Virus record (IMG/VR): IMGVR_UViG_3300033388_004030
Span: 1 to 37,874 of that record
Direction: 5' to 3' (one strand)
From: a virus
Length of the DNA: 37,874 nucleotides
This document shows, piece after piece, positions 4,233 to 13,676 of this stretch. Both the position numbers and the translations under genes were made by a program. Positions within the stretch are counted from its first letter, which is position 1; every line of letters starts with the position of its first letter. The notes beneath the pieces were generated by a model. That model was not told the origin of the DNA, did not search any database, and saw only the letters and a program-made list of their open reading frames with translations.

Positions 4233-4594
4233 GTAAATCCAAGAAACTTGGGCTGAACATGGATATCGTGCCGGTTGGCGAGATGTACGACATGTGTTGT
4301 TGGGTTGACGAATACGGCCCAATGCGATTCCAGTACAAAACCCGTGAGGAAGCGTTCCCCGCTCAAATGCGCCTCACCAGTATTTTCAGAAGCATACGGG
4401 ATAACACAGGAATACACCCTGAGTTTTCGGAGTTGTTGAATATCACGAAAACCTTCCAAGTAAAGGCGGTGAAGCCGGATCCCGGTAACAGCGCGTTGCC
4501 CTGGTATTTTGAAATCGTGGCTTTCGAGATGCACCCCGTTGACGAAAATATCCTGGACCAGGCGGCGGAGATCATGAATGCTGAACATCCATAA
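4229..4594 (+). CDS. Hypothetical protein, 121 aa
   Basis: Unrecognised soluble alpha/beta protein (MYDMCCWVDEYGPMRFQY, later LPWYFEIVAFEMHPV). It lies directly before the PD-(D/E)XK nuclease gene, overlapping it by 17 bases, and is coupled to the gene before it by ATGA. Its place suggests a partner in the recombination and replication cassette, but that is inference from context only. Confidence 0.55.
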   Translation: MSKSKKLGLNMDIVPVGEMYDMCCWVDEYGPMRFQYKTREEAFPAQMRLTSIFRSIRDNTGIHPEFSELLNITKTFQVKAVKPDPGNSALPWYFEIVAFEMHPVDENILDQAAEIMNAEHP

Positions 4595-5582
4595 ACCGCT
4601 TCTCGCCCTGGGACTTACCGTCGAGTTCCCCCACGTCCTCAACAACTCACTGCGCCAGACCTTTATCTCTTGTCCACGGAAATGCTTTTATGACAACATC
4701 CTGGGCCTGAAGTCCATCAAATCCTACGGCATAAGCATACATCTCAACTTCGGCGGGGCGGTGGCTGAGGGCATGGACATGATGCGCCAAACCTTTTACG
4801 GCCCGGGCGGAGGTGACGCCGACACTGCGCTGATCGCGGGGCTCCAAGCTGCCCTAAAAAAGTTCAACACAGAATTCTACGAGGAGACCCACGTCAAAAA
4901 CGTCGTCAGCCTCTGCGCCCTACTCATCGACAACACCGAACGCTGGCCCCTAGGTGAGGATTACCTAGTTCCGCTCATCGACGAAAACGGAAAGCCCTCA
5001 TCGGAGTTCAGTTTTTGCACTCCGCTCCACCCGGGGCTTATTCACCCAGGAACCGGCCAGCCGCTGCTCTATGCGGGGCGTCTGGATTGGTTGGCCCAGC
5101 ACGCAGGGGCCGTCATCCCCAAAGGCCACAAACCCATGCTCTCCCTGGTGGACGAGAAGACCTCGGGATCCCTGGGGGCCTCTTGGAGCAAACAATGGAC
5201 CATGGAATCCCAGTTCTCAAGTTACGCCTGGGTTTGCCGCAAAATGGGGATGAACGTGGGCAACGTAGTGATTAGGGGAATGGCCCCCTACAAAACCAAG
5301 CCCACTGGAACGGAGGAACTGACCCTTCGCCGCCCGGATTACCAAGTCCAGGAGTGGTATGACACATGGTGTATGGAGGTCCGCCAGATGCTGACCTATT
5401 TTGAAGCAGGGGTTTGGCCCAAGAACCTGGGCAAGGCTTGCAGTAGCTTCGGGAGTTGTCGGTTTATGGAACTTTGCACAGTGCAGGATCCTTCGGCGTG
5501 GATTGCTGCCGGGTATCGCCAAGTGTGGTGGGATCCAATTACAGGAACTGAGAAGAATAGCCCGGAAGGAGTTGGGAAATGA
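4578..5582 (+). CDS. Cas4/RecB-like PD-(D/E)XK exonuclease with Fe-S-type cysteines
   Basis: This 334-residue protein fits phage nucleases of the PDDEXK/Cas4-RecB type, which resect DNA ends for recombination. Visible motifs are C32 in SCPRKCFYD, FGGAVAEG at 58-65 (the usual His of this helix is replaced), catalytic-type D170 in AGRLDWLA, the D192-E193-K194 box in SLVDEKTSG, and Q212xxxY216. Three C-terminal cysteines, C288, C294 and C300, with C32 give the four-cysteine pattern of an iron-sulfur cluster as in Cas4 and AddB. It lies just upstream of a recombinase-type ATPase, as in many phage recombination modules. Confidence 0.85.
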   Translation: MLNIHKPLLALGLTVEFPHVLNNSLRQTFISCPRKCFYDNILGLKSIKSYGISIHLNFGGAVAEGMDMMRQTFYGPGGGDADTALIAGLQAALKKFNTEFYEETHVKNVVSLCALLIDNTERWPLGEDYLVPLIDENGKPSSEFSFCTPLHPGLIHPGTGQPLLYAGRLDWLAQHAGAVIPKGHKPMLSLVDEKTSGSLGASWSKQWTMESQFSSYAWVCRKMGMNVGNVVIRGMAPYKTKPTGTEELTLRRPDYQVQEWYDTWCMEVRQMLTYFEAGVWPKNLGKACSSFGSCRFMELCTVQDPSAWIAAGYRQVWWDPITGTEKNSPEGVGK

Positions 5583-5830
5583 AAGAGTATTCCCTGAAAG
5601 AATGTGGGTACCATAAATGGGACAGCATTAAATTGGTGGTATACCCCTATTCCGATCAAATTTCGATCGAAACCACCCGGAATAATGACTACTTCCAAGG
5701 CGAGATGTTGGAAGATTGGGAGATGTCCCGGGAAGAGGTGTTAACCCTTATCAAGCAGTTAAATATCGCACTGGATTACCTTGATAATTTCGATCCAGAA
5801 AAAGGCGACCCAGAGGAGATAAAAGGATGA
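5579..5830 (+). CDS. Small paralogous protein, copy 1, 83 aa
   Basis: Begins MKEYSLKECGYHKWDSIKL and aligns along its length with the next gene product: SLxxCGxHxWxxIxL at the start, SDxxxxExTR in the middle and EDWEMSREEVLTLIKQL against ESWKLTPTDVRVLIGQL near the end. This marks a tandem duplication. The protein is likely a small alpha/beta fold with a C-terminal helix. Function unknown. It overlaps the nuclease gene by four bases, so it is part of the same operon. Confidence 0.65.
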   Translation: MKEYSLKECGYHKWDSIKLVVYPYSDQISIETTRNNDYFQGEMLEDWEMSREEVLTLIKQLNIALDYLDNFDPEKGDPEEIKG

Positions 5831-6084
5831 GCGACTTCTCCTTATCCGGGTGTGGGGCGCATGAATGGGAGCAGATCGGCTTAACCACCTGTTACAAGAG
5901 CGACCTTGTCTTCCTTGAGGTGACTCGGCTTCATGATGTCCGGGGGTTCGTATCGGAATCTTGGAAGCTGACTCCTACTGATGTCCGAGTACTCATAGGC
6001 CAGTTAGAAGCGTCCATGGATCTACTTAAAAGACAACGCCAGGAATACGCGGATAACCAAGCAACAACTAAGTGGAGGTTTTAA
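5827..6084 (+). CDS. Small paralogous protein, copy 2, 85 aa
   Basis: Second member of the tandem pair (MSDFSLSGCGAHEWEQIGL). The conserved Cys-Gly-x-His at residues 8-11 is shared with copy 1 and may be functional. AAAAGG precedes the start and an ATGA overlap joins it to copy 1. It ends two bases before the ATPase gene. No function recognised. Confidence 0.65.
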   Translation: MSDFSLSGCGAHEWEQIGLTTCYKSDLVFLEVTRLHDVRGFVSESWKLTPTDVRVLIGQLEASMDLLKRQRQEYADNQATTKWRF

Positions 6085-6085
6085 C

Positions 6086-6928
6086 ATGGAATGTATCGTT
6101 CATCAAATCTACATCCCACCCGCTCTCGGGGAATTCACCACGTTCCAACTCCGTACCAAGGCTTTGGCTGATGACGTGGGCAAGAAATCCGAAGGTAAGT
6201 CTTTCGGTCCAGGCGTCAAACGAGCCTATGCCGCTATTGGGAAGCGATTCGGAGAAGCTTTCGACAACTTCACCTGCGAGCGTTGCGGCGAATCGTTCGG
6301 GGACGTGGCCACCTGGGGCACCGACCGGGTCCTTTTCATAGACTCCCTGTCCGGCATGAGCAAGATCATCATGAACTTGGTGGCCGGGGACATCGCCACT
6401 AAAACCCTCCCAAACTGGGCCAATGCCATGGAGCATCAAATGGTCCTCATCACCGAGATGGTCCAGGGTGCGAAGTGCCATTTCATCATGATCGGGCACC
6501 CGGACAAACTTGTTGATGCTGTCCATGGGGGGGTGCGGATCCAACCCTCCGCCCTGGGGAACAAGAACTCCCCGCAAATCCCAACCATGTTTCATGACGT
6601 GATCTGGGCACACATGAAGGGGAAAAAGTACCTCTGGTCCACCATCGACGCCCAAGCCGATCTCAAGCACCAGTTCTTGGAGTCCAGCAACGAGCTGCCC
6701 CCAGACTTCACGCCGCTATTCAAGGCATGGAAAGCCCGGAGCGAGTTCATGCCCCTGGATGGTGCGAAAATCCTGCTGTATGGTGATGCGGGCAAAGGCA
6801 AGACCCACGCACTGGGCACCCTCCCGAAGTCCTTTGAACCGGGCAAGATCTTCGCCATTTTCACCGAGTCGGGGCAGCCCACCCTGGCCAAGTCTCTCAG
6901 TTTGAATCTCGCTTCCCAACCCCGGTGA
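6086..6928 (+). CDS. Circularly permuted phage P-loop ATPase (Sak4/RecA-like recombinase type)
   Basis: The 280-residue protein contains the blocks of a widespread phage ATPase next to recombination genes, but in swapped order. Residues 8-12 (IYIPP), the CxxC knuckle C64-C67, a Walker B strand 82-86 (VLFID) and the sensor-like FIMIGHPDK (133-141) come first. The usual C-terminal end (FTPLFKAWKAR, 208-218) runs directly into FMPLDGAKILLYGDAGKGKT at 221-240, the normal N-terminus with its Walker A. In relatives, as I recall them, the Walker A block comes first and is followed by the IPP block. GGAGG precedes the ATG. Probable role is ATP-dependent strand annealing or exchange with the upstream nuclease. 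Whether the permuted fold is active is unknown. Confidence 0.8.
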   Translation: MECIVHQIYIPPALGEFTTFQLRTKALADDVGKKSEGKSFGPGVKRAYAAIGKRFGEAFDNFTCERCGESFGDVATWGTDRVLFIDSLSGMSKIIMNLVAGDIATKTLPNWANAMEHQMVLITEMVQGAKCHFIMIGHPDKLVDAVHGGVRIQPSALGNKNSPQIPTMFHDVIWAHMKGKKYLWSTIDAQADLKHQFLESSNELPPDFTPLFKAWKARSEFMPLDGAKILLYGDAGKGKTHALGTLPKSFEPGKIFAIFTESGQPTLAKSLSLNLASQPR

Positions 6929-6939
6929 CCACGTGGTCA
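6926..6939. promoter_or_regulatory. 14-bp perfect palindrome, possible operator
   Basis: TGACCACGTGGTCA overlaps the stop of the ATPase gene and lies 38 bases before the next start. A TATAAC at 6951-6956 follows, but no good -35 box is spaced to it. It may be an operator. One or two perfect 14-mers are expected by chance in a window of this size, so only the intergenic placement is notable. Confidence 0.3.
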
Positions 6940-6976
6940 TCAATGTAGTTTATAACTTAATAAGGAGTAGTACCCT

Positions 6977-8010: not shown

Positions 8011-8201
8011 CCCAACCCCACCCCAACGAAGTGGTGTCCGAGACTACTCAGAAGAAAGCGGATGTATACTGGGATCTCACCTGTAGAGAGGTAGTCCATA
8101 TGGATGAGTGCGAGAAATGCCTGGACGAATATAACTGGGCTTACTGTCCGTCACCCAATGCTAAGACAAAGACTGGTAGAACCAGGGGAGGTAAGGTCTA
8201 A
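8007..8201 (+). CDS. Single Cys4-module protein, 64 aa
   Basis: Contains one copy of the cysteine module found twice in the preceding protein: C26-x8-C35-x2-C38-x8-C47-P-S, in the context LTCREVVHMDECEKC. The C-terminus is basic (KTKTGRTRGGKV). It probably arose by duplication of the module from the gene before it. It starts with an ATGA overlap and its TAA overlaps the polymerase ATG, so it is coupled to polymerase translation. Confidence 0.65.
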   Translation: MTQPHPNEVVSETTQKKADVYWDLTCREVVHMDECEKCLDEYNWAYCPSPNAKTKTGRTRGGKV

Positions 8202-10624
8202 TGCCCCAAATAGCCCCCCACCAACTCACCCCACACACCCCCGGTCCAGTTCTCATCATCCACGACGCCCACGTCTCCACCACCGCGCTCAAGTTCAAAA
8301 GCGGCATAGAGTATTATCAACAAGAAATTCTAGCGGACCTGCTCCAACGGGCGGGCCTGATGCCGGGGGAGTCCGTCCAGCACACCCTATTCGCCGAAAC
8401 CATCGGTGGGCATAAATGGAAATGGGACGCAGACCGGACGCTGTTTCCGACTATGGCGGTAGCGCGGAAAGCCAACAAAGCAGACAAAACGACCAGCGAT
8501 GCTGCATTTGGGGTGGAGGGGCTTTACACGGAAAAATTTATTCAAGACAATAATGACTACTACAAGCCCCCCTGCCCCTGGCTCTCCGACCGCTATACTA
8601 CCCAAACCACCGCCGAGGCCATCACCACCCTAAACGCCGAGATCACCCGCCTCGCCCCAAGTTTCATCATCTGCATGGGCGGTGCCGCTTACTGGGCTCT
8701 CACCGGGAACACCCCCCTTGAGAACTGGCGCGGTACCGTCTCACACCCAGAGGGGATGCCTTGCCCGGTGATTGGCACGTTCCCGGTGAAGCGGTTGACC
8801 ACACAGCCGGAGTCCCGGTGGATTCTGCAAGCGGATTTGGACCGGGCGGTGCGGGTGATGCGGGATCCGAGCCGAATGCCAAGGGAGCCCCGTATCTATG
8901 AGGGAGATGTGGTACTGACTGAAGCTGATTTGGTGGAATTCGAGACCTATGTCAAAAATATGGTATGGATTGGTGCTAAGGTAAATGACTATAAAACCGG
9001 ACATATTGTGTCTTGCGACATCGAAACCAGAGCAGGGCATATCGATTGCATCGGAGCTGTAACAAACGTGGGTCTTGGTAGAGCCTTTCTCACCCCTTTC
9101 ATCAACCATGCCGGGGACACCATGGTCGCCCAACACTGCTTCCTCCCAGGCACTAAGAAAGGCTTGGGCTTCCTATCCTCCATCTACCGCCGGAACCACA
9201 TCTACTGGAAAGAGGAAATCTCCGGCGACGATATGACCCGCTGGAAATACTGTCTCAAGGACTGCATCAACACCTATGAGATCTGGACCGAACTCCGGCC
9301 CCAGCTCGACGTGGTCGGGGTCGCCGAATACTACGAATTCTCCATGCGGCTCTGGAGGGCTTCGCTTTGGGCCACCATCCGGGGCATTAAATTCGACAAG
9401 GTCGCTCTCAAAAAACTGAATACCAAACTCCGGGCCGACCTGGCGGAAGCCCTGCGCCGGATCGAATTCATTTGCGGCCACCCGCTCAACCCCAATTCCA
9501 CCGCCGCAACCGGGGATCTCCAGGTCTTCTTGATCAAGGACATGGGCCTGGAACTCTACAAGGCCCCGGGCACCACACGCCTGTCCACAGGCAAGGCCGC
9601 TATTGTCAAACTCAAGGGCCGATACCCCTGGATTTCTCCGCTCGTTGACCTCATTCTCCATGCCCGGGAAACCCGCACGGCTTTGACAAACTTTGCGACC
9701 CTGAACCTGGACTACGACGGGCGGATGCGGGCTTCCTACAACGTAGCCGGGACCAAAACCGGACGACTCGCTTGTTCCAGCACGGCTTTCGACAAGGGGC
9801 GAAACCTCCAGAACTGGCCCGGGAATTTACAACATGTGTTTGGGCCGGATGAGGGTATGACGGCGTTCGAGGTGGACTTGGCCGGAGCCGACATTCAGAT
9901 CGTAACCTGGAGGGCCGATGAACCGGTCAGGGTATCCCCCGCCGAATCGGGGCTCCCGGCCAGTGTCTTGCCCATGCTATCGGTCGCTCCCGACCTGGAC
10001 ACGCCCAATGAACTGAAGGCCCTTTTCCGGGCTGGCGGCGCGGTCCATATCCACAACGGCGTCACGCATTTCGGGTTCCCGGAGATGGCGGAGCAGGGGA
10101 AGAAGCATCCAGCATACAAACTGGTGAAAATGGGGGGCCATCTGATCAACTATGGAGGCAAGCCCACCACCCTGGCTAAGGCCCTGGGTATCACCGTCAA
10201 GGAGGCCAAAGTCTTCCAGGAGAAGTATTTCAAGGCGTATCCGCAGATCAAGGAATGGCACAAAACCACAAACAAGTTGCTCAAGGAAATCCGGCAGATC
10301 CGCTCTCCATTCGGGATGCGCTTTGTGTTCCTTGGCCGGGTCGATGGTAAGGCCCTCAACGATGCTCTGGCCTGGGAGCCCCAAAGCACCGTGGCCCGGA
10401 TCACCAACGAGGGCTGGCTCAACATGTTTGAAAAGCATCGGGGCTTGCTTGAAGTCCAGCTCCAAGTGCATGATTCGCTGAAGGGGCAATTCCCGACCGC
10501 CCGGAGAGACGAAGCCATGGCCGCTATTGCGGAGTGCATGAAGATTGTGGTGCCGTTCGCCGATCCGCTGGTGATTGGGACGGAATGTGCAACGTCGGAG
10601 AATAATTGGGGAGAATGTAAATGA
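8201..10624 (+). CDS. polA: Family A DNA polymerase with UDG-like N-terminus and damaged proofreading domain
   Basis: The 807-residue phage replicative polymerase has three parts. Residues 13-220 resemble the uracil-DNA-glycosylase superfamily (APSFIICMGGAAYWALTGN at 152-170, WRGTVSHP at 176-183). Residues 268-370 are a DnaQ-type 3'-5' exonuclease with Exo I D273-I-E275 and Exo III Y350-C-L-K-D354. Only about 75 residues separate them, against roughly 140-160 in E. coli Pol I and T7 gp5, and no Exo II N-x3-D motif is present. Residues 500-807 are the polymerase: motif A around D559 (FEVDLAGAD), motif B K643 to Y651, motif C H757-D758. The usual motif B arginine position seems to hold Tyr639. 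The start overlaps the previous stop (TAATG). Confidence 0.92.
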   Translation: MPQIAPHQLTPHTPGPVLIIHDAHVSTTALKFKSGIEYYQQEILADLLQRAGLMPGESVQHTLFAETIGGHKWKWDADRTLFPTMAVARKANKADKTTSDAAFGVEGLYTEKFIQDNNDYYKPPCPWLSDRYTTQTTAEAITTLNAEITRLAPSFIICMGGAAYWALTGNTPLENWRGTVSHPEGMPCPVIGTFPVKRLTTQPESRWILQADLDRAVRVMRDPSRMPREPRIYEGDVVLTEADLVEFETYVKNMVWIGAKVNDYKTGHIVSCDIETRAGHIDCIGAVTNVGLGRAFLTPFINHAGDTMVAQHCFLPGTKKGLGFLSSIYRRNHIYWKEEISGDDMTRWKYCLKDCINTYEIWTELRPQLDVVGVAEYYEFSMRLWRASLWATIRGIKFDKVALKKLNTKLRADLAEALRRIEFICGHPLNPNSTAATGDLQVFLIKDMGLELYKAPGTTRLSTGKAAIVKLKGRYPWISPLVDLILHARETRTALTNFATLNLDYDGRMRASYNVAGTKTGRLACSSTAFDKGRNLQNWPGNLQHVFGPDEGMTAFEVDLAGADIQIVTWRADEPVRVSPAESGLPASVLPMLSVAPDLDTPNELKALFRAGGAVHIHNGVTHFGFPEMAEQGKKHPAYKLVKMGGHLINYGGKPTTLAKALGITVKEAKVFQEKYFKAYPQIKEWHKTTNKLLKEIRQIRSPFGMRFVFLGRVDGKALNDALAWEPQSTVARITNEGWLNMFEKHRGLLEVQLQVHDSLKGQFPTARRDEAMAAIAECMKIVVPFADPLVIGTECATSENNWGECK
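10607..10624 (+). repeat. 18-bp direct repeat, copy 1
   Basis: TGGGGAGAATGTAAATGA occurs here and again at 11302-11319. It holds the ribosome binding site and start codon of the downstream gene. Here it encodes the end of the polymerase (GECK, stop); at the second site it is read in another frame. This suggests a duplicated translation-start region, not shared protein sequence. Confidence 0.8.
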
Positions 10625-10977
10625 ATGTTGGAGCTGAAGGTACGCCATGTTGCGTGACTTGCAGAAGTTTCAAACGAGACTTAATGTGTGATGGGATTAT
10701 CTGGGCAGACTTGGGCAGTTGCGATAAGGGGCATCGCTCCTCGGATGGGGACGCCGATGGGGGTGTGTTTATTTACAACATGTGCTATCGGGATTATGAG
10801 CCTAAATTTGGGGATGACCGAGAATTCGGATGTCCTCCCTGGAATAGTAACGAGGGGTCTTTCAGCGATCTACTACCCCCTGGACTGACTAGGGACCAAC
10901 GGGAAACCCTACAGCAGATTGCTCAAACACTGTTGCAGAATACCCAGGCACTTCGTAGGGGTTCCCCATGCAAATAG
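10621..10977 (+). CDS. Cysteine-rich protein, tandem copy 1, 118 aa
   Basis: The N-terminus GTPCCVTCRSF (C10, C11, C14) and later blocks SCDKGH and MCYRDYE are shared with the next gene product (GVPCCRSCEHF, TCAKGH, ICYRDYE). The conserved Cys and His residues suggest metal binding. The pair is a tandem duplication after the polymerase gene. The first ATG overlaps the polymerase stop inside the 18-bp repeat. Function unknown. Confidence 0.7.
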   Translation: MNVGAEGTPCCVTCRSFKRDLMCDGIIWADLGSCDKGHRSSDGDADGGVFIYNMCYRDYEPKFGDDREFGCPPWNSNEGSFSDLLPPGLTRDQRETLQQIAQTLLQNTQALRRGSPCK

Positions 10978-11315
10978 GGTACGAAGGGGTGCCGTGTTGT
11001 CGATCCTGTGAGCATTTCACACAAGAGCTTATGTTTCCGGGTATCTACTGGGGTGACTGGGGCACATGCGCTAAGGGGCACTATTCTACAGGGATGCCGC
11101 CTAATGGTAATGTGTTTCTGAGTAATATATGTTACCGGGACTACGAAATGGTAGCTGACGGGCGCGCCCGAAACCAAAAGCCCCCTCCATGGTTAAGTCT
11201 AGTGGTCCCGACGGGCGCCCAATTACCTGCTGGGCTGTCTCCTTGGCACTGGGTTATGCTGAAACAACTCGCACAAACGATGCTTGATGATAAGAAAGAA
11301 ATGGGGAGAATGTAA
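10968..11315 (+). CDS. Cysteine-rich protein, tandem copy 2, 115 aa
   Basis: Second copy of the pair, with C10, C11, C14, then CAKGH and CYRDYE at matching spacing. Between the shared blocks the two have diverged, and the C-terminal third matches only loosely (LKQLAQTMLDD against LQQIAQTLLQN). The gene ends in the second copy of the 18-bp repeat, placing one gene-length unit between repeats. AGGGG precedes its start. Function unknown. Confidence 0.7.
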   Translation: MQIGYEGVPCCRSCEHFTQELMFPGIYWGDWGTCAKGHYSTGMPPNGNVFLSNICYRDYEMVADGRARNQKPPPWLSLVVPTGAQLPAGLSPWHWVMLKQLAQTMLDDKKEMGRM

Positions 11316-11902: not shown

Positions 11903-12237
11903 TCATGACCCCCATCATGACCACCCTCATCCACCACTGCCCCCCCGACGAGGCCCAAGCTTGCGTCAATCGCCTTGGGGGCCTCCGCTACCTCATCCAC
12001 CCAACGACCCCAAGCCGCGCTCTCCGCTTTGGGGCTGGCCCGGTTGTGCTGGGCGTTCTGCTGGAGAGACACCCCGGGCAACTCATCTACTTCCCCCAAG
12101 CCAAGGCATTCCTAAAAGCCCAGCGTTACCAGAAAATTCTAGAATGGGCTGATGCCGGGATCAGTTTTTCTGTAATTGCAGAACGAATCGGATTTACTGA
12201 GACCAAGGTCCGCTGGATCTGGAGGGACCACAAGTGA
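11899..12237 (+). CDS. HTH protein, Mor-like, 112 aa
   Basis: The C-terminal 35 residues (YQKILEWADAGISFSVIAER, then IGFTETKVRWIWRDHK) have a clear helix-turn-helix pattern like Mor/C-type phage activators. The N-terminal part may be a dimerisation domain (RLGGLRYLIHP, VVLGVLLERHPG). The start is a GTG overlapping the previous stop (GTGA); an in-frame ATG follows at 11905. GAGAGGGG sits well for the GTG. It could regulate the late block, but no target site is visible. Confidence 0.55.
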   Translation: MIMTPIMTTLIHHCPPDEAQACVNRLGGLRYLIHPTTPSRALRFGAGPVVLGVLLERHPGQLIYFPQAKAFLKAQRYQKILEWADAGISFSVIAERIGFTETKVRWIWRDHK

Positions 12238-13676
12238 CCATGAAGCTCCCCCCACGCAGTAAAATGCGCCAAGAAGGGGAACCGCTGGACCCCCCCACCC
12301 AGGGGAGCCCGGTCCCTAAATCCAAAAAGACTGCGCCGAAGCCAAAAGCAGCTCCACGCCCGAAACCCAAGGCGAAATCCACCCACACCGAGCCCCATTT
12401 CCCGGACTGGCTTGAAGCCTATTGCGACATGAACGATTCCCTGGAGGCCCCGCGCTACATCCACCGCTGGGTGGGGCTGTTCACTTTCGCCGCTGCTCTG
12501 GAACGCCGGGTGTTCATTGACGAAGGGGTTTTCCACTGGACCCCGAACCTCTACGTCCTCCTCCTCGGACCCTCCGGGGTGAGCAAAAGCACCTCCATCA
12601 GCCCGGGCAAGCGCATCCTCCGGGACGTGGGAGTGCCCATGGGAGCCAGCGACACCACCTACGAGGCCCTGGTGGCCAACCTGGCCCGCAATAAGACCAG
12701 GCTGCCCTTACCGCACAACGACGAATACCAATACTCCGCCCTGGCTGCCTGTGTGTCCGAGATGGGCACCCTTTTCGGCAAGGACGAAGAACGCAAATAC
12801 AACACCTATATCGATTTCTGGGATTCCGAAGAAGGGCCTTGGGAGAAACACCGGATAAGTGGAAACGCCAATGTCCACACCCCAAGCCTGAGCCTGATCA
12901 CCGGCACCACTCCACCATGGCTTCGGGGAAACATGAGCCCTTCCATCCTGAACGGAGGGTTTTTCGCTCGATTTATCGTGGTCCACATGCACAGCCGGGA
13001 GAAGCACCGGGCATACCCATCGGATTTTTTGAGCTCTGAGGCCGGGGCCACGATGCACTCCAAATTGGTGGAGGATCTGACCCTGGTCCGGGAGCAGTTT
13101 GTGGGGAAGATGACCCTGACTGAAGACGCCAAGGCTTGGGGCCGCATCTGGTACGATCAATTGATTTTAGCAAGTAAGGTCCGGGGGGAGGTGGAACTGG
13201 TTGCGGGCTCCTTGAATCGCCGTCAGCAGATGGCACATAAACTGGCCATTACCCTGAACCTGGCCCGAGGTCGGGGCATGGTCATTACCAAGGAAACACT
13301 GATTGAAGCGTCTGACCTACTGAAAGCCGTGGAAAAAGACCTACCCACAGCACTGGGTGATGTTCTACACAACTCGACCCAGAACCAGGAAATCGTGGTC
13401 AAATACATCGCCAATGTCGATACGAACCAGGAGGGGAAAACTTCAGTTCTCCGGTCCAGGTTGGTGACTGTTTTGAGAAAAATTACTGACTTAGATGTCA
13501 CTCAAATAGGGAGTTTGCTGGACGAGATGCTGGCCAATGGTTTAATAAACACTGTATCGGACCCTAAAAAAGAATTCGTCCTCAGCCACCGATTGCGGTT
13601 TGTACTGGGACCTGAGACGAAACCCCAGGATAAACTGCATGATTTGAAATTTCAGAAAACGATGAGGGGACTATGA
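12234..13676 (+). CDS. DUF3987-like replication ATPase (primase/helicase type)
   Basis: The 480-residue protein starts at a GTG overlapping the previous stop (an ATG follows at 12240; GGAGGG favours the GTG). Residues 20-50 form a Lys/Pro-rich unfolded leader. RYIHRWVGLFTFAAALERRV at 74-93 and the Walker A variant GPSGVSKST at 112-120 fit phage DUF3987 helicases, whose P-loops have this SKS form. The Walker B-like strand is LAACVSEMGTLFG around E176. It probably unwinds DNA at the replication fork with the family A polymerase. No separate primase catalytic centre was recognised. Confidence 0.75.
   Translation: MTMKLPPRSKMRQEGEPLDPPTQGSPVPKSKKTAPKPKAAPRPKPKAKSTHTEPHFPDWLEAYCDMNDSLEAPRYIHRWVGLFTFAAALERRVFIDEGVFHWTPNLYVLLLGPSGVSKSTSISPGKRILRDVGVPMGASDTTYEALVANLARNKTRLPLPHNDEYQYSALAACVSEMGTLFGKDEERKYNTYIDFWDSEEGPWEKHRISGNANVHTPSLSLITGTTPPWLRGNMSPSILNGGFFARFIVVHMHSREKHRAYPSDFLSSEAGATMHSKLVEDLTLVREQFVGKMTLTEDAKAWGRIWYDQLILASKVRGEVELVAGSLNRRQQMAHKLAITLNLARGRGMVITKETLIEASDLLKAVEKDLPTALGDVLHNSTQNQEIVVKYIANVDTNQEGKTSVLRSRLVTVLRKITDLDVTQIGSLLDEMLANGLINTVSDPKKEFVLSHRLRFVLGPETKPQDKLHDLKFQKTMRGL

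Follow-up and report, generated by a model that had tools for sequence, protein, structure and literature searches.

A phage replication gene that probably encodes a circularly permuted Sak4-like ATPase

Most of the natural circular permutations known in P-loop domains are found in GTPases. The sequence-only reading of this locus had named the YRG/YjeQ/YlqF GTPases as precedent and these do have a naturally permuted P-loop domain, as does the protein described here, but they are GTPases of ribosome assembly and are cut at another place (G4-G5-G1-G2-G3). The precedents are wider than this. The cpRAS GTPases are circularly permuted with the order G3-G4-G5-G1-G2 (PMC2430557), and the cut falls where it does in the protein described here, after strand 2 and before strand 3, which puts Walker B-type motifs ahead of the P-loop. 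However, cpRAS proteins are Ras-type GTPases that occur in larger proteins with a scattered distribution, and they have no homology to the RecA core. For recombinases of the RecA type, no permuted member was found in the literature searched, which omits most subscription journals; the sequence-only reading had also thought that a permuted recombinase ATPase would be new.

The closest described systems are the Sak4-like single-strand annealing ATPases (PHROG 124; for example HK620 Sak4 and phage 52A Sak4, 8rc5). These have the sequence of a RecA core, Walker A, Walker B, and the conserved lysine of a KxR motif in common with the protein described here, and both they and the gene studied here belong to a replication module with a recombination nuclease close by. 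They differ in that Walker A comes first and the KxR arginine is present, whereas our protein has the swapped order and a glutamine, Q196. In the phage 52A structure, Lys229 and Arg231 of the neighboring protomer are at the bound ATPγS (PMC11846896).

The window, meaning the whole stretch of DNA analyzed, is 37,874 bases long and covers all of the virus record IMGVR_UViG_3300033388_004030, which has no end repeats. Its left arm, on the + strand, carries replication genes, and a structural arm occupies the – strand. Features of the replication arm are listed in Table 1. The ATPase gene had been described as lying next to a recombination nuclease; the nuclease is indeed nearby, but two small tandem-duplicated genes intervene. 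The small protein encoded downstream of the ATPase is conserved at that position in several relatives and has no recognized family. Its position suggests a single-strand binding protein, which Sak4 phages often encode there; ssb is the neighbor of about 80% of sak4 genes (PMC5928155). The polymerase has an N-terminal extension that resembles uracil-DNA glycosylase only faintly (Pfam UDG, E 0.21), and a GPxPAKVLIIGE-type N-terminal block is common to its relatives.

Table 1. Positions of the permuted ATPase gene, its parts, and neighboring features in the window.
Feature	Position	Strand	Basis or remark
PD-(D/E)XK nuclease, replication/recombination module	4578..5582	+	Pfam PDDEXK_1; matches in 55 ORFs of related loci
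Two small tandem-duplicated genes between nuclease and ATPase	5579-5830 and 5827-6084 (5579..6084)	+	Alignment score 120, shuffled maximum 45
GGAGG Shine-Dalgarno-like site, 7 nt upstream of the ATG of the permuted gene	6074..6078	+	Sequence
Permuted ATPase gene, 280 aa	6086-6928	+	Single open frame, ATG start
First coded segment, residues 1-218, normal central and C-terminal part	6086..6739	+	Profile positions 109-274, alignment, AlphaFold2
GGAG, 7 nt before internal in-frame ATG 6749; possible relic of a ribosome-binding site	6738..6741	+	
Junction linker SEF, joining old C-terminus to old N-terminus	6740..6748	+	Profile position 274, then 5 within a few residues
Second coded segment, residues 222-280, normal N-terminal part	6749..6925	+	Profile positions 5-49, PHROG 124, AlphaFold2
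Perfect 14-bp palindrome TGACCACGTGGTCA, including the stop codon of the permuted gene	6926..6939	.	
Small protein, 150 aa	6977..7429	+	Weak phrog_25472 match, E 0.006; 14 homologous ORFs in related loci
Family A polymerase	8201-10624		Replication arm
Tandem paralogues, cysteine-rich, 118 and 115 aa	10621-10977 and 10968-11315		Second duplication of the replication arm
DUF3987/primase-type protein	12234-13676		Replication arm

The order nuclease, ATPase, polymerase is kept between the window and its canonical relatives. The genome is a mosaic, with an HTVC010P-type terminase and a replication module common to phages that mostly have a different terminase. The terminase itself has about 47% identity with its counterparts in HTVC010P-type pelagiphages. 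When phages with related terminases were searched for the ATPase, only one (G007, the record of L014) had one, in canonical order, and among the phages searched that record alone shares both the terminase and the replication module with the window.

The order of parts in the gene is as the sequence-only reading had given it, with Walker B, the CxxC knuckle, and the C-terminal block first and Walker A last in one frame; both the open reading frame and the swapped profile matches confirm this. The first segment contains the strand IVHQIYIPP, the CxxC knuckle (CERC, residues 64–67), Walker B with its aspartate D86 (RVLFIDSL), H138, a KxR-like motif (K194-H-Q196), and a C-terminal helix that ends in WKAR. 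The second contains the lead MPLDGAKILLYG, Walker A (GDAGKGKT, residues 233–240), the second strand FAIFTESG, and the helix that follows. The palindrome TGACCACGTGGTCA at the 3' junction of the gene could be an operator or a mark of rearrangement; by chance alone, the window should contain about two of this kind.

Profile searches, which had been suggested for the two halves, showed that both match the Sak4-like family in swapped order. Against PHROG 124, which is a Sak4-like ssDNA annealing protein family, the protein matched in two stretches (E 6e-12), residues 82–216 to positions 111–258 and the last 62 residues, searched alone, to positions 43–80. We also used a family profile of 149 relatives from which the window was left out. 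With this profile the C-terminal-type half, coded first, matched model positions 109–274 (195.5 bits, i-E 2.9e-57), and the Walker A half, coded last in the same frame, matched positions 5–49 (32.3 bits, i-E 1.6e-7). Judged from these matches, the permuted order is above chance. After manual rotation back to the usual order, the protein sequence can be aligned over its full length with ATPases from three isolate or environmental phages, namely Microcystis phage Mel-JY34, Vibrio phage VS-ABTNL-3, and ctMlz233. These canonical relatives, together with those from IMG/VR, are 28–40% identical to the window protein over the shared segment; they differ from it in that all have Walker A first. The Pfam and PHROG matches were to RecA/Sak4-type families only, the Pfam match being a barely significant one to AAA_24, and the NKxD motif of GTPases was absent from the protein, the nearest string being NKNS at residues 159–162. 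The sequence-only reading had pointed to phage AAA/Sak4 families; the family is Sak4/RecA-core rather than classical AAA+, and from its sequence matches permuted Sak4-like (RecA-core) ATPase seems a better name than AAA+ protein.

Structure prediction gave a similar picture. For this the AlphaFold2 alignment had to have each relative split into two rows, one per half, and had to include the query several times. The permuted protein was predicted as one compact domain that includes both halves (mean pLDDT 75.9, pTM 0.79); block means of pLDDT were 87–90 near the P-loop, the new N-terminal strand had 82, and confidence was low at residues 15–51 and 274–280. As a comparison, the canonical relative L050 gave a mean pLDDT of 90.4 and a pTM of 0.89. 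The elements of L050 (E6–11, H21–26, E30–35, H40–43, then E51–55 through H252–264) and those of the permuted model (E5–9 through H209–219, then E228–233, H239–243, E255–259, H264–270) correspond in rotated order as modeled, and the model puts the new chain ends in the loop that leads from the second helix to the third strand. In the PDB, Rad51 paralogues, Sak4 (8rc5), and RecA were matched by the canonical model, at E values as low as 1e-6. The permuted model had no significant match in the PDB by sequential structure search, which is expected when a sequential aligner meets a permuted fold and is not itself proof of permutation. It did match phage RecA/AAA models in sequential comparison. YqeH (3h2y), a member of its Foldseek list, was not significant (E 0.18).

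To see how unusual this order is, we surveyed relatives through scans of IMG/VR in which the ATPase segment, nuclease, and polymerase served as queries and through a scan of GTDB genomes, and we added the junction-pattern matches listed. This yielded 339 sequences including the window, with 214 family ORFs, one per locus. Walker A comes first in all 205 ORFs that have an informative 5' end, as the sequence-only reading had stated for the relatives. Seven of the 214 lack Walker A because the contig begins inside the gene. The only permuted entries among the 214 were the window and its own duplicate entry (L001), and the IMG/VR junction-pattern scan showed no permuted Sak4 among the matches listed. 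Some contigs recur among these sequences; without redundancy, there are 147 full-length ones. Single-protein scans found no close relatives of the window's ATPase or polymerase, and the closest relatives found have about 45% identity in the ATPase and at most 53% in the terminase. Near-identical records may be hidden from such searches, so independent copies of the permuted gene could exist unseen. Together, the profiles, the alignment, the canonical homologues, and the structure prediction support the idea that a phage recombination ATPase has been circularly permuted.

This order is known from one contig, and the permuted gene is likely to be real in the phage genome. It is unlikely that the true gene is canonical and that the contig misjoins its two parts. 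In favor of such an artefact is that the permuted order was seen once, in an unreplicated metagenome contig, and in none of the 205 informative relatives. However, it would take two separate swaps that preserve the reading frame, set an ATG 7 nt downstream of GGAGG, and cost almost no sequence (position 274 is joined to 5). The gene region and its vicinity contain no exact direct repeat of at least 13 nt that could cause a misjoin, and codon usage is uniform across the gene, with a GC3 of 0.73 in both halves. With no repeat and with a start codon rightly spaced behind GGAGG, misassembly would need two lucky joins. It is rather unlikely, too, that the gene is real but non-functional, that is, what is left of one or two broken ATPase genes, fused after a recombination event and heading for loss. 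Several near-invariant positions are altered, which speaks for decay. Among positions at least 90% conserved, 7 of 32 are changed, including the KxR arginine (Q196) and a glycine (A112), and only 3 of the 147 relatives match or exceed this. The window contains no other ATPase of the Sak4-like family, so this function may be gone or may be provided from elsewhere. The two halves also rank relatives differently; their similarities to relatives show no correlation (rho 0.00, whereas the median is 0.69; this is the lowest of the 124 values), which makes a join of two different ATPase genes possible. A chimeric origin of the halves may explain this value, but the P-loop half has only about 48 aa and the whole lineage is divergent. 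By contrast, the frame is open over 280 codons and all 10 positions that are at least 99% conserved in the 147 homologues are kept, spread over both halves; K239 and T240 of Walker A and D86 of Walker B are intact. The window also differs from the family medians in all three proteins compared (ATPase segment, 0.282 versus 0.543; nuclease, 0.279 versus 0.519; polymerase, 0.178 versus 0.381), each being the most divergent of its own set. Since all three are outliers, the divergence belongs to the lineage as a whole, and decay has been no faster in the permuted gene than in the neighboring genes. That its divergence is no greater than that of these essential-type genes argues against decay.

We consider it very unlikely that the halves act as separate or exchanged pieces, with the P-loop half completing the next chain by a domain swap in a filament or with ATG 6749 yielding a P-loop peptide. 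Points in favor of this possibility are the very short linker that joins the halves, the filaments that Sak4 proteins form (PMC11846896), and the GGAG 7 nt upstream of ATG 6749. However, AlphaFold2 places both halves in one compact monomer, and about 8% of internal ATGs (17 of 221) carry such an upstream motif by chance. With these alternatives weighed, a naturally circularly permuted Sak4-like (RecA-core) ATPase, known from this single contig, is the probable product of 6086–6928, although real doubt attaches to it. In this reading the gene seems to be a rare case of a RecA-type enzyme rearranged in nature.

The sequence-only reading had proposed that the order arose by tandem gene duplication with loss of the outer parts and had pointed to tandem duplications in the same arm. 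Both duplications, 5579/5827 and 10621/10968, are real. Where position 274 is joined to 5, with the GGAG before Met 6749, one copy seems to end and another to begin, although the GGAG is a weak trace given how many internal ATGs have such a motif. An origin by a tandem or adjacent second copy, fusion, and loss of outer parts is plausible; the P-loop part of the first copy and the C-terminal part of the second would have been lost. DNA alignments of both flanks for remnants of the lost outer halves were no better than shuffles, and none of the 214 ORFs in 214 loci gave a relative with two copies of the ATPase. A frameshifted continuation of the P-loop half into 6905–6950, tempting by eye, was rejected; 17% of shuffles equal it.

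We propose that the permuted ATPase, with its central and C-terminal parts coded first, its P-loop part last in the same frame, and a putative ribosome-binding site of its own, still works as a Sak4-like enzyme. The chain is predicted to fold as the usual RecA-type domain, with the short linker joining the old C-terminal helix to the P-loop strand. The protein would bind ATP and oligomerize on single-stranded DNA, and it may assist, as Sak4 does, in annealing or recombining phage DNA ends that the neighboring PD-(D/E)XK nuclease would have resected. In the KxR motif, K194 is kept and the arginine, 97% conserved in relatives, is Q196; by position these two residues probably correspond to Lys229 and Arg231 of 52A Sak4. 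With a glutamine in place of this near-invariant inter-subunit arginine, inter-subunit ATP sensing and ATP turnover may be altered. A broader and more doubtful suggestion, offered tentatively, is that this is the first natural circularly permuted recombinase of the RecA/Rad51 fold and that its new ends and fused old ends rewire the filament interface, possibly through exchange of P-loop halves between subunits, giving a different rule of ATP coupling. The swapped order defeats routine annotation, as the barely significant Pfam match and the sequential PDB search that gave nothing significant illustrate. If the permutation is confirmed, the RecA core, which depends on filament contacts, would be seen to tolerate a P-loop moved to the end of the chain, and the protein would be a natural test of which recombinase filament contacts depend on chain connectivity.
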